Shown: piece by piece, positions 24,679 through 43,321 of the stretch
How positions within the stretch are numbered: the first letter of the stretch is position 1
How the letters are laid out: every line of letters begins with the position of its first letter
DNA from: Peribacillus asahii
GTDB taxonomy: Bacteria > Bacillota > Bacilli > Bacillales > DSM-1321
Length of the DNA stretch: 64,000 nucleotides
Assembly: GCF_004006295.1 (NCBI RefSeq)
Contig: NZ_CP026095.1
Location: 207,501-271,500 of the forward strand
Direction: 5' to 3'
Translations under genes and position numbers: made by a program
The notes under the pieces: generated by a model
The model's database searches: none
The model's input: the letters and a program-made list of their open reading frames with translations, nothing else
What the model was told of the DNA's origin: nothing

Positions 24679-25650
24679 TTATGCGAGTCTTTGAATGACA
24701 ATAGAGGCACTTACAACAGCAGGACCAGAACCAGACGGCTGATTATTTAAAGTAGTTCCGCCATCGATGTTAATTAAAGTGAGTATTTCTCCTGCCGCTA
24801 AAGTTGTAATCACTTGTCCTGGATATGATTGGTCGCCTGAACCGGAACCATAATTCGAACCTGCAATTTGGCCAGTTAGATTGGAGGATAATGCGAATGC
24901 GGAAGTTCCTTGTTGAGGGAATACCTCCCAGGTAATGAGATAGGTTCCAGCTTGGTTAATTGTAATAGGAGCTGTTCCTGGTACATGTGTAACAAATCCA
25001 GGTGTATTGCCAGGGAAGTTTGTATTAAAAGTAACTGCTCCAGCTGCAGGTACAGATTGTTGGGTTGTATCGTAAATGAAGGCAAATCCAGAAACTGCTG
25101 CACCCGTAGCGCCAGTGTTACCAGTGTTACCAGTAGGACCAGTGTTACCAGTAGGACCAGTGTTACCAGTAGGACCAGTGTTACCAGTAGGACCAGTGTT
25201 ACCGGTAGGGCCAGTGTTACCAGTAGGACCAGTGTTACCAGTAGGACCAGTGTTACCAGTAGGACCAGTGTTACCAGTAGGACCAGTGTTACCGGTAGGG
25301 CCAGTGTTACCAGTAGGGCCAGTGTTACCAGTAGGACCAGTGTTACCAGTAGGACCAGTGTTACCAGTAGGGCCAGTGTTACCAGTAGGGCCAGTGTTAC
25401 CAGTAGGACCAGTGTTACCAGTAGGGCCAGTGTTACCAGTAGGACCAGTGTTACCAGTAGGACCGGTGTTACCAGTAGCACCAGTGGCAGTATTTACAGT
25501 CACTTTGACTATTTGATCAACATGTTGACTTTGCTTAGCTTTACATTCACATTTGCTATGTCCACAATCTTTACATTTTTTATCTTTACATTTGCATTTA
25601 TCATGATCGCATTTTTTACACTTTTTATGTTTATCTTTGTCTTTACCCAA
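24679..25650 (-). CDS. Collagen-like exosporium/spore-surface protein 1
   Basis: The product has 323 residues. A lysine- and cysteine-rich head (residues 1-40, with [12 protein letters not shown] and [12 protein letters not shown]) is followed by a collagen-like region of G-x-T triplets (residues 57-184, mostly GPTGNT) and a C-terminal beta domain of about 139 residues resembling the BclA C1q/TNF-like head. The start is TTG, 8 bases after GAGGTG. Every third Y position is Thr, giving dense potential O-glycosylation sites as in BclA. A CATAtccTA box lies upstream. Two related genes follow on the other strand. Confidence 0.87.
25099..25482 (-). repeat. 18-bp tandem repeat encoding GPTGNT
   Basis: About 20 nearly identical 18-base units form the collagen-like stalk. 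Variation is limited to third codon positions such as A/G in GGACCA versus GGGCCA, which suggests recent expansion and easy change of copy number. Confidence 0.9.
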
Positions 25651-25681
25651 TTTATTTTCACCTCTTTCCCTTAACTAATAT

Positions 25682-25690
25682 TAGGATATG
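25682..25690 (-). promoter_or_regulatory. Candidate sigma-K -10 box of collagen-like gene 1
   Basis: On the minus strand CATATCCTA fits CATANNNTA. The position 17 bases upstream reads AT instead of AC, so this is weaker than the boxes of genes 2 and 3. Confidence 0.4.
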
Positions 25691-25837
25691 AATTGAAAAT
25701 AAATTAGATTGGACAGGTATCCTAAAATATAGAAAATTTCGCTTTTTAACGAATTATATTATTTATAGATAATAATAGATCTTTCTCTAAAATTACTTTT
25801 ATCTATCTACTCTTAAACTTAAAAATAGGGGATAAAT

Positions 25838-26050
25838 TCAATATCTTATTGGATTAGCTTTATAACATACTTTCAGCTGTTCAATAGTACATAATTTTTT
25901 CACCAGTTTTCTTAAGGGGTTTGTTGTATTAGGGATTATTCGAAAATATCTTGGCTCCTTTCCGAATGTAGCTCTAGTTTGATTTGTGTAGTAATTTAAT
26001 CTACCCCAATTAACCTGCGAAATTATGAGTAAGGGGCTAGTTTCGTTCAC
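25838..26050 (-). pseudogene. IS110-family transposase remnant (N-terminal part)
   Basis: The 70-codon frame contains FGKEPRYFRIIPNTT and PLRKLVKKLCTIEQLKVCYK, which matches the early part of IS110-type transposases (EPRFFGTIPNT, RKLVKKLG, LRVCYEAGPTGY). The reading stops where the conserved AGPTGY should be, and no ends or catalytic remainder are visible. The surrounding 25651-26140 shows nothing else. Confidence 0.6.
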
Positions 26051-41578: not shown

Positions 41579-41598
41579 AGAAGGAGTGGGTTTGATAG

Positions 41599-42240
41599 AT
41601 GAATTTAAACCAGATAAAAAGGCCTTATGATATGATTGTAAGCTTAGGGTGGAATTGCCAAACAGCTTTTCAACTCAAAAGGAAAAAATTAAGAAGCTTC
41701 ACTGGGCCTATCGATTGGATGTATTCTTATTCGGTAAGTCATCTATGTAGACTACTTAAACAGAAATTTAATGGATTTATGGAAATTGAAAATATGAGAA
41801 TTGAAGGTATACAAGGTACCAACAGTTGTTACACTGTGTCGGACTTAAATACAAGGTGTGTCTCGGTTCATGATTTTCTTGTTACAGAAAATAGCGATAC
41901 TTCTCTATTAACGTATCCTCAATTTAAAGAAAAAATGAATAGACGTATTGAGAAATTGTATAATTCTTTAGCTATAAGCGATTCAGCATTGTTTGTAAGA
42001 ATACAAGCTAATCGGGATGAAGCACTTGAGTTAAAGAATGCGATATCTGAGGTTTATCATGGGGATTTTTCGATATTAATCATCAATTATACGAAGGAAG
42101 AAAAGGTTATTGAAATAGATTGGGCTATTGACAGGGTTTGCGCAGTTGAAATTTCTAATTCAGTCAATGCTTGGACAGGATGTAATTCAGCCTGGGATAC
42201 TATTTTAGAGGGAGTTACTCTTTCAGAAGGCAGTGATTAA
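41599..42240 (+). CDS. DUF1796 family putative papain-like cysteine peptidase
   Basis: The product has 213 residues. The family opening MIVSLGWNCQTAFQLKR carries the presumed nucleophile cysteine (SLGxNC), followed by FTGPIDWMYS, a histidine in CVSVHDFL, and the closing NAWTGCNSAWDTI. DUF1796 members are predicted hydrolases often found in surface-glycan or capsule clusters; no activity is established to my knowledge. It lies 20 bases after the GT2 gene. Confidence 0.78.
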   Translation: MNLNQIKRPYDMIVSLGWNCQTAFQLKRKKLRSFTGPIDWMYSYSVSHLCRLLKQKFNGFMEIENMRIEGIQGTNSCYTVSDLNTRCVSVHDFLVTENSDTSLLTYPQFKEKMNRRIEKLYNSLAISDSALFVRIQANRDEALELKNAISEVYHGDFSILIINYTKEEKVIEIDWAIDRVCAVEISNSVNAWTGCNSAWDTILEGVTLSEGSD

Positions 42241-42298
42241 CTTATATTTTTTAGTTAAATGCATTCAAATTCTTTAAAGAAGGAGCGTGAAATGAACA

Positions 42299-43321
42299 TT
42301 GTTAAATATAGGTGTTTGTGGATACTATGGTATGGGTAATTTTGGAGATGAATTGTTTTTAAAAACATTTAAACAAATTTTTCATGATCATAGAGTTTTC
42401 CCTTGGTCGGCTTTTTTGGACCCGAACAAAATTGATGCTGTCATTATTGGTGGAGGGGATTTAATTACACCATACTACTATAATGAATATTATTTCCCTC
42501 CATTATTAGAAAATCACCCTACTTGGATATATGGGGTAGGTGTGGTGGACCACTATAATGAAGATACATGGCCGACTGAACAGATTGATAGGCATCGCCA
42601 GAGACTTTCAAAAGCAAAAAAGGTCTATTTAAGAGATGATAATTCTGCTCGAATATTTAAAAAATATAACCTTCATAAAGAGGTAAAGGTTGCTCCAGAT
42701 GTCGTGTTTGCATATGAACAACCTGAATATCCGATTAGGAAATATGCGGGAGTGGAGACAATTGGTATTTGTGTAAGTTCCTACGATGATTTTCCCTTTC
42801 AAAAGATTGTTAATCTTTTAGTACAACTAACTCAAAAAGGGTATCATGTATTTTTAATACCAGTAGTAAATCAATCTAATAATAAATACTCTGATTATAC
42901 TTTATGTAGGAATATTCGAAACGCATTATTAGAATCCAACCCTAAGGCTGCTGTTACCCTACCATATAATGAATATGATTTAGAGATGACGTATAGTTTA
43001 ATTCAATCCGTTGATTATTTAATTTCTTTTAAATTACATCCAGCTCTTGTAGCAGTTCGTAATGGGATACCGACTTTTTGTTTTTCAAAAATGAGTAAGG
43101 TAAAATCTCTTCTGAAAATGTTCCATTTGGAGAGATTTTCAAATGACTTTGAAATACCAGAGCAGGACATGATAGAAAGAGTCTTTCGTTTTTTGAACTT
43201 AGAAAAAGATAAATTCTATAACATAAAAAGCCAAGTGGAAGTGGTAGAAAGTAATAGTAGGAAACATCTATTGGAACTGAAAGAAGACATCGAAAAAACA
43301 ATAAAAAAGGGTAGTTCATAA
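42299..43321 (+). CDS. Polysaccharide pyruvyl transferase family protein
   Basis: The product has about 340 residues: IGVCGYYGMGNFGDELFL, DAVIIGGGDLITPYYY, KKVYLRDDNSARIFKKY, and LISFKLHPALVAVRNGIPTF are characteristic. It adds pyruvate ketals to sugars, as CsaB or PssM relatives do. The start is unclear. AAGGAG is 6 bases before an ATG at 42292, but that frame ends after 15 codons. The protein frame can start only at TTG 42299, about 13 bases from the site. One extra base between 42298 and 42302 would explain this. Confidence 0.82.
   Translation: MLNIGVCGYYGMGNFGDELFLKTFKQIFHDHRVFPWSAFLDPNKIDAVIIGGGDLITPYYYNEYYFPPLLENHPTWIYGVGVVDHYNEDTWPTEQIDRHRQRLSKAKKVYLRDDNSARIFKKYNLHKEVKVAPDVVFAYEQPEYPIRKYAGVETIGICVSSYDDFPFQKIVNLLVQLTQKGYHVFLIPVVNQSNNKYSDYTLCRNIRNALLESNPKAAVTLPYNEYDLEMTYSLIQSVDYLISFKLHPALVAVRNGIPTFCFSKMSKVKSLLKMFHLERFSNDFEIPEQDMIERVFRFLNLEKDKFYNIKSQVEVVESNSRKHLLELKEDIEKTIKKGSS

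Follow-up and report, generated by a model that had tools for sequence, protein, structure and literature searches.

The window analyzed here, a stretch of 64,000 nucleotides from Peribacillus asahii (contig NZ_CP026095.1, positions 207,501 to 271,500, with all coordinates below counted from its first nucleotide), contains a real and coherent spore-filament locus. Three collagen-like proteins encoded in it begin with a cysteine-rich head without precedent in the libraries and the literature we searched. The left half of the locus is probably a block for BclA-like spore filaments anchored by this head, and the right half a separate polysaccharide module. The home genome has a size of 4.89 Mb and all of its 18 collagen matches lie inside this one locus. 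The components listed in a first-pass annotation of the same DNA, i.e., a CotF gene, three collagen-like genes, a rod protein gene and sugar genes, are all present, with the correction that the Coat_F reading frame (23896-24537) is situated just to the left of the range originally assigned to the locus. All eight genes then counted as sugar genes were found; one of them encodes the DUF1796 protein, which Pfam lists as a putative papain-like peptidase and whose sugar-related role is therefore presumptive.

All three collagens start with MGKDK and carry the signature C-x2-C-G-H-S-K-C-x-C-K, and each exceeds the cut-off for PF01391. Threonine is the third triplet residue in 42 of 43 triplets of collagen 1, in all 51 of collagen 2 and in 165 of 174 of collagen 3. 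Their earlier classification as exosporium-type collagens is borne out by the C-terminal domains. That of collagen 3 is of the BclB type (TIGR03721, E 1.1e-50, 172 bits versus a cut-off of 93). That of collagen 1 matches BclA_C at 5e-6, i.e., below the cut-off, and the solved chain 9H38 at 1.5e-11. In the accessible text of the depositing paper, 9H38 is the C-terminal domain of F-BclA, a TNF-like trimer, although its label in the Protein Data Bank (PDB) reads FliK (PMC11952670). For the C-terminal domain of collagen 2, no family above chance was found in Pfam or NCBIfam. The triplet tract of this protein halts at 26775 after 51 triplets and restarts at 26817 in another frame for a further 41, and the C-terminal domain runs to 27590, out of frame. 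Either the gene for collagen 2 is broken or the assembly is wrong here; the frame change (26775-26817) lies in the middle of the tract and sits beside a run of A. A segment of 254 bp upstream of collagen 2 recurs upstream of collagen 3 with 84% identity, and therefore one of the two genes has probably been copied from the other.

The head is built from the unit C-x2-C-G-H-x2-C-x-C, which places four cysteines and one histidine within 11 residues, is rich in lysine and occurs in one to six tandem copies. At an E value of 0.01, five of the 43 genomes examined in the family have relatives of the window head (E down to 4.6e-7), and at 1e-3 a 13-row head profile matched five of 397 in the order, the window's own genome being included in both counts and the draw of 397 holding only part of the genus Peribacillus. 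When the head from plasmid pB of Peribacillus sp. R9-11 was compared with 5.8 billion proteins, six proteins were retrieved with E values down to 2.2e-18, five from Peribacillus and one from Bacillus sp. Leaf13. The window's own head yielded no homologues among the 5.8 billion proteins in a shared-word search. Plasmid and phage records gave one plasmid record and no phage. Because there are three copies in the window, relatives at 4.6e-7 and the pB head match at 2.2e-18, the head is, on the strength of these comparisons, not a chance pattern. It found nothing above chance in Pfam and NCBIfam, metal-binding families included, and no PDB chain at an E value of 1. In the literature searched, no paper combined exosporium, collagen-like and Peribacillus, and none contained the head strings.

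We read 23 open reading frames (ORFs) with a head in their context: three in the window, six on plasmid pB, six on a contig of genome G038, three in G019 and one each in G017, G039, G040, G131 and G228. This count includes variant heads in G017 and G228, and a further one in G036 stands outside it. In 21 of the 23 the head runs directly into collagen triplets, and the remaining two are decayed collagen genes. The promoter of the latter (36 aa on pB, 40 aa in G019) had suggested that head-only mini-proteins exist as real genes, which we rejected: the pB mini-ORF is followed by a collagen-domain relic in other frames with stops and that of G019 by a short relic only. The stalks behind the heads differ considerably. 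They are of the Thr type in the window, G017, G039 and G040, and of the Gln type on pB and in G038 and G019, where third-position threonine ranges from 0/13 to 47/198 in 12 stalks. Those of G131 and G228 are rich in threonine (20/50, cut by a contig end, and 10/14). Stalk length extends from two triplets (P0005) to about 890, the latter in a Cys-head collagen of 2967 aa in G039 (L074:7391-16291). The BclB domain TIGR03721 exceeded its cut-off on two of five other head proteins scanned, one with a Thr-type (G040) and one with a Gln-type stalk (pB). Since heads are found in front of threonine-poor Gln-type stalks too, a role as glycosylation signal was rejected, and the head looks like an anchor module instead.

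The first-pass annotation had further asked whether the head always precedes collagen repeats and neighbours glycosyltransferases. The former is what we see, apart from the two relics; the latter is true often, not always. Neighbourhoods were judged by eye from translation starts, with the exception of pB and of the profile matches to the glycosyltransferase discussed below. Heads accompanied by sugar genes or glycosyltransferases are those of the window, of pB (annotated with pse, rml and a number of glycosyltransferases), of G017 (two family 2 glycosyltransferases, GT2, and rml-like genes), of G040 (the GT2/TPR enzyme discussed below) and of the G019 relic on contig C74. No glycosyltransferase was recognized beside the heads of G019 on C59 and C83, of G039, of G131 (contig end) and of G228. 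The neighbours on C59 of G019 resemble galactokinase and its neighbour genes. Plasmid pB itself (NZ_CP133765.1, L058-L060) has a size of 149 kb and combines five Cys-head collagens and one relic with genes for pseudaminic acid and rhamnose and several glycosyltransferases.

A conserved promoter-like site is located 38-43 nt upstream of the head genes. Of 22 head genes, the two relics among them, 17 have CATANNNTA in the 150 bp upstream, compared with 2.1 expected from shuffles. Alignment of 14 sites from outside the window showed a T-N-TCCAATC-like box 19-24 bp upstream of CATA in 12; in one of the other two the box lies at 32, and in the other TCCA is missing. The element CATAnnnTA is conserved, and the upstream box differs from the textbook -35 element. 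We trained a two-box matrix on these 14 sites, all outside the window, and ran it over both strands of the 64 kb. It placed the sites of collagen 2 and collagen 3 jointly first with 23.0 bits, followed by a next score of 20.4; the best control score was 19.0 in 254,821 bases. The collagen 1 site was absent from the top 14 of this ranking. With a second matrix that included the window sites in its training, 21 sites passed in 511 kb and none in the control, 18 of them before head genes (14 used for training, two before relics), two before other ORFs and one before none. In G038, two non-collagen ORFs of 223 and 286 aa (C1, near 106711 on the minus and 40572 on the plus strand) have a head-gene-like promoter site and could be additional regulon members or partners in attachment. 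The box pair was found in none of seven headless collagen ORFs (two of them fragments) from 12 collagen loci and is missing from seven of eight genes for the glycosyltransferase family described next. A strict sigma-K pattern was present at two of 17 locus genes, which form a duplicate pair, versus one of 25 controls, and the classical sigma-K pair was rejected as a window-wide signal for lack of enrichment. With three flanking genes set aside, CATA at -35 to -60 was seen at nine of the 14 locus genes versus two of 25 controls, a weak signal chosen post hoc. According to the accessible part of a study on Bacillus thuringiensis, bclA is under the control of SigK there and carries CAC-N16-CATATGTTA (PMC4750369). 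We read the Peribacillus site as a putative sigma-K-type promoter plus an upstream box.

The first-pass annotation had proposed the stalk threonines as sites of sugar attachment, and this proposal gains support from the gene at 33358, which encodes a GT2 domain followed by a tail of tetratricopeptide repeats (TPR). Among 36 genomes of the genus, eight matches to GT2/TPR were found in seven genomes at 1e-10. Seven of these eight have a Thr-type collagen at a distance of no more than about 5 kb; the G039 match has none within 6 kb. The enzyme is present in seven of eight Thr-type and in none of six other Peribacillus genomes (Fisher 0.0023), these 14 having been typed from readable collagen loci rather than from every collagen gene; a further seven, in which collagen matches were weak and numbered only one or two, stand outside this count. 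A perfect split (7/7 versus 0/7) was rejected, because G008 had been typed via the enzyme's own neighbour and G029 proved to be Thr-type. In the order, the family profile matched 129 of 397 genomes at 1e-40. A collagen tract of at least 10 triplets was located near the gene in 29 of 40 loci versus none of 20 control stretches, which were drawn from 20 of the 40 sampled genomes; the loci, one match per genome from the upper ranking with near-duplicates skipped, do not constitute a random sample and were inspected up to about 6 kb on each side, contig permitting. The 29 collagen-positive loci span 18 family labels; 27 were scored as Thr-type by script, and the other two are antisense readings of Thr-type tracts. 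Compared with solved chains, the tail of the family profile best matched an engineered TPR protein (1.2e-49), and the catalytic part is closest to GmaR (5.5e-38) and SunS (2.5e-25). Foldseek placed SunS and ThuS on top for the predicted structure (mean predicted local distance difference test score, pLDDT, of 66), with template modelling (TM) scores of only 0.24-0.29. GmaR adds O-linked N-acetylglucosamine (O-GlcNAc) to flagellin. By its profile matches, the GT2/TPR gene belongs to a GmaR/SunS-related family, and its gene neighbourhood suggests that a collagen serves as the protein substrate.

Comparison with P. asahii MA001, the nearest named record (91-95% identity in all but one of seven aligned stretches, the exception being the rod with 81%), divides the locus into two parts. 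Positions 24522-35715 correspond to about 515 bp in MA001, i.e., the collagens, the CapD-like protein, GT2/TPR and GalE are gone as one block. In tblastn searches, the latter three found nothing in the 20.6-kb locus of MA001, its genome has no collagen match, and no GT2/TPR match exists in G009, which is very probably MA001. The difference may reflect either insertion or loss; no scar was seen. MA001 keeps WecB, GT4, GT2, the DUF1796 protein and the pyruvyl transferase (91-93% DNA identity) together with a short rod, all in the absence of collagens. The right half therefore looks like a separate, species-level surface polysaccharide module, and the left half alone appears tied to collagen. Within the genus, the pyruvyl transferase occurs in two of 36 genomes, that of the window and G009. 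The rod protein, of 412 aa if the GTG that has the better ribosome site is taken as start, contains about 18 copies of a 42-bp unit that are 97% alike (37824-38591). The rod of MA001 has 180 aa and lacks the 14-residue array, so that rod length varies within the species group. Of the two DUF2642-like domains originally proposed, the one at the rod end is weak (7e-4, 19.9 of the 22.7 bits of the curated cut-off) and matches another family equally well, and for the 65-aa ORF at 38846-39043 no Pfam family was matched at all.

That the head is not the usual exosporium leader was stated previously and is supported here. TIGR03720 was not found in the heads and is over its cut-off in none of 36 Peribacillus genomes; sub-threshold matches occur in 28 of the 36, with E values up to 1 and a best value of 0.0046. 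The scaffold family ExsY/CotY/CotZ (PF10612) was found in none of nine Peribacillus genomes searched, with B. subtilis as positive control, and the outer scaffold must therefore either differ in kind or have diverged beyond the reach of the profile. Enas (endospore appendage, ENA) was detected in four and DUF4183 (F-ENA) likewise in four of these nine. The window genome, G000, has two divergent Enas-family genes (G000:C1:1756564-1757338). Enas was not found in the head-bearing genomes G019, G038 and G040, and DUF4183 not in G000, G038 and G040. Since both are missing from head-bearing G038 and G040, ENA pili are, as judged by these profiles, not a required partner of the heads.

Taken together, the left half (~24.5-35.7 kb) would be an optional block whose products build BclA-like filaments on the spore surface. 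Transcription of the collagen genes would start late, in the mother cell, at their common sigma-K-type promoter. Each filament would be a trimer with the Cys-rich head at the spore end, a triple-helical Gly-x-Thr stalk and an outer knob of the C1q/TNF-like or BclB type. The GT2/TPR enzyme would place the first sugar on the stalk threonines, and the CapD-like protein and GalE may supply part of the nucleotide sugars. The head would replace the exosporium leader as fastener, its units forming disulfides with coat proteins and with each other, or binding metal, and more units would mean more attachment points. The right half, from WecB to the pyruvyl transferase and including the rod, would be a surface-polysaccharide module independent of the collagens. 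What the data show directly is the linkage of head and collagen, the conserved promoter, the domain assignments, the association of GT2/TPR with collagen and the two-part layout of the locus; the rest of this picture is proposed. Several observations weigh against parts of this reading. Collagen 3 also exceeds the cut-off of NF038329, a model for streptococcal collagen adhesins (343.6 versus 325), which we read as an effect of the repeats. An AlphaFold2 model of the head had a mean pLDDT of 54, with no ordered or confident fold, and was uninformative. The collagens on pB are of the Gln type yet placed among sugar genes, and the collagen promoter scored above background at no sugar gene of the window in our matrix scans. 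With regard to the GT2/TPR enzyme, G029 has Thr-type tracts (42/43 and 66/68; L231, C12) without a match in the genome at 1e-10 or in the 17 kb around them; collagen was not found nearby in 11 of the 40 loci; the window protein is only 24-28% identical to seven aligned relatives; and related genomes are not independent samples, G008, G027 and G030 looking closely related, so that the seven Thr-type genomes with the enzyme stand for fewer than seven events.

In principle, the same genes can be arranged into other explanations. The first-pass annotation regarded all eight sugar genes as one pathway for the collagen glycan, with CapD, GalE and WecB providing donors, GT2 and GT4 enzymes building the glycan and the pyruvyl transferase and the DUF1796 protein finishing it. 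Adjacency in the window speaks for this idea, which is nevertheless unlikely, as MA001 retains the right-half genes and a short rod without any collagen and the sugar genes lack the collagen promoter; it is further weakened by Gln-type stalks behind heads and by head loci in which no glycosyltransferase was recognized. Of the overall interpretation, the exosporium-type collagens, threonine as likely sugar site and the unusual head are retained, and the single pathway is given up. It is also conceivable that the block is decaying and that its collagens fail to be produced or displayed. The broken frame of collagen 2, the transposase-like relic beside it, the two head relics elsewhere and the missing block in MA001 all fit decay; collagens 1 and 3 and the three sugar genes of the block are nevertheless open, the collagens retain their conserved promoter-like sites, and we regard decay as very unlikely. 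An even smaller chance is given to the GT2/TPR enzyme being an S-glycosyltransferase that acts on the head cysteines in the way SunS and ThuS act on glycocins. In the fold comparison of the model these two enzymes come out first, at low TM; G019 and G038, which have Cys heads on Gln stalks, are devoid of the enzyme, and G008, G027 and G030 possess the enzyme and Thr stalks and have no head match.

Alternatives to the proposed attachment concern the head itself. It could plug the collagens into ENA pili as tip fibrils rather than into coat or exosporium. The connector of L-BclA and a leaderless Bt collagen protein with five cysteines in its N-terminus have a CC motif in common with S/L-ENA subunits, according to the accessible text of the report (PMC11952670), and the window genome contains the two Enas-family genes mentioned above. 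The window heads, however, have no CC motif, the ENA families are missing from head-bearing genomes as detailed above, and G009 has both Enas and DUF4183 yet no collagen, so that we attach a low probability to this arrangement. A metallothionein-like array that holds zinc or copper on the spore, with collagen as display stalk, appears doubtful, though slightly less so. The spacing of four cysteines and one histidine in lysine-rich tandem units would suit it, as would the variation to five, three and two units in P0001, P0003 and P0006, which are alike by eye outside the head; the heads matched no metal-binding family above chance and no PDB chain, and AlphaFold2 gave no ordered fold. Going beyond the BclA-like filament block anchored by the Cys head, we tentatively consider that promoter and head form a portable anchoring cassette, mainly in Peribacillus with few outliers, that can be joined to any stalk and to several knobs, the number of units setting the firmness or place of disulfide or metal cross-linking and replacing leader docking and the CotY/ExsY scaffold.

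The features of the locus are compiled in Table 1. The relic between collagens 2 and 3 is presumed to resemble a transposase. At the right edge, the locus is flanked by what we take, from the translations, to be YetF-like and spoVAD/spoVAC-like genes. To the left of it, the gene for an ABC-transporter ATPase (21887-22488) is split into two ORFs and is unsplit in MA001, and the ORF at 23368-23724 encodes 118 aa compared with 179 aa for its MA001 counterpart; indel errors in the assembly or gene decay may underlie either case.

Table 1 Features of the spore-filament locus and the adjoining putative polysaccharide genes (window coordinates)
Feature	Position	Strand	Evidence and remarks
CotF-like spore coat protein	23896..24537	+	PF07875 Coat_F, E 1e-16; left flank conserved, present also in P. 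asahii MA001
Collagen-like protein 1	24679..25650	-	two-Cys-unit head, 43 triplets (42 with third-position Thr), BclA/F-BclA-type C-terminal domain
Promoter-like site, collagen 1 (TGTCCAATC ... TTCATATCCTA)	25680..25718	-	training site of second matrix
Promoter-like site, collagen 2 (TTGTCCAAAC ... CTCATAGAATA)	26130..26170	+	joint first of 64 kb, matrix trained outside window
Collagen-like protein 2	26200..27593	+	one-unit head, Gly-x-Thr tract 26317-26775, frame break, C-terminal domain out of frame
Transposase-like relic (presumed), many stops, between collagens 2 and 3	28180..28500	+	translation
Promoter-like site, collagen 3	28666..28706	+	matrix scans; joint first of 64 kb
Collagen-like protein 3	28736..30916	+	one-unit head, 174 triplets (165 with third-position Thr), BclB-type C-terminal domain TIGR03721
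CapD/PglF-like membrane nucleotide-sugar 4,6-dehydratase	31294..33105	+	PF02719, 8.6e-114; not at this locus in MA001
GT2/TPR glycosyltransferase, collagen-linked family	33358..34593	+	profiles, neighbourhoods, fold comparison
GalE, UDP-hexose 4-epimerase	34667..35677	+	TIGR01179, 2e-141, over cut-off; not at this locus in MA001
WecB, UDP-GlcNAc 2-epimerase	35960..37162	-	TIGR00236, 5.7e-158, over cut-off; kept in MA001
Coiled-coil rod, about 18 14-residue repeats, end weakly DUF2642-like	37624..38871	+	kept in MA001, much shorter
Small ORF, 65 aa	38846..39043	+	no Pfam match
GT4, TuaH-like (below cut-off)	39300..40310	+	kept in MA001
GT2, TuaG-like (below cut-off)	40331..41578	+	kept in MA001
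DUF1796 protein	41599..42240	+	PF08795, 4.5e-24; kept in MA001
Polysaccharide pyruvyl transferase	42299..43321	+	PF04230, 2.1e-29; kept in MA001

The filaments proposed here share with BclA and BclB of the Bacillus cereus group the Gly-x-Thr stalk, a C-terminal domain of the C1q/TNF-like or BclB type, a putative sigma-K-type -10 element and a glycosyltransferase encoded nearby. They differ in that a Cys-rich head of one to six units takes the place of the exosporium leader and in that PF10612 was not found in the nine Peribacillus genomes searched. BclA1 of Bacillus (Priestia) megaterium is also a Gly-x-Thr collagen and is encoded on a plasmid, pBM500, much as the pB heads are plasmid-borne; like pBM500, pB may be viewed as a plasmid devoted to the spore surface. 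The N-terminal domain of BclA1 is leaderless and still reaches the forespore; it differs from the Peribacillus head in that its 159 residues are called globular, and the accessible text of the paper mentions no Cys-unit head (PMC4674009). Clostridioides difficile, a distant spore former, offers a parallel in SgtA and BclA3, in that a glycosyltransferase gene adjoins a collagen gene. There, SgtA, whose gene is located beside bclA3, adds beta-O-GlcNAc to stalk threonines in vitro, as stated in the accessible portion of the report (PMC7157674). GmaR and the glycocin-modifying SunS and ThuS act on proteins and have a catalytic domain related to that of the GT2/TPR enzyme, which is distinguished by its TPR tail and its collagen neighbourhood; the collagen acceptor is suggested by the latter. 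Tip fibrils of the L-BclA type likewise consist of a collagen with a Cys-bearing connector, as far as the accessible text goes (PMC11952670), but they have the CC motif in place of C-x2-C-G-H-x2-C-x-C units, and our heads occur in genomes without ENA matches.

The Peribacillus filaments are thus likely a variant of the BclA type, with the head as a likely new mode of fastening. Detailed knowledge of spore-filament attachment comes mainly from the B. cereus group, and a Cys-unit head that travels with its own promoter would represent a second, testable mode of attachment. The head is also a possible tag for the display of proteins on harmless spores, and the GT2/TPR family, in view of the sampled loci, may serve to flag Thr-type spore collagens at the gene level throughout the order.

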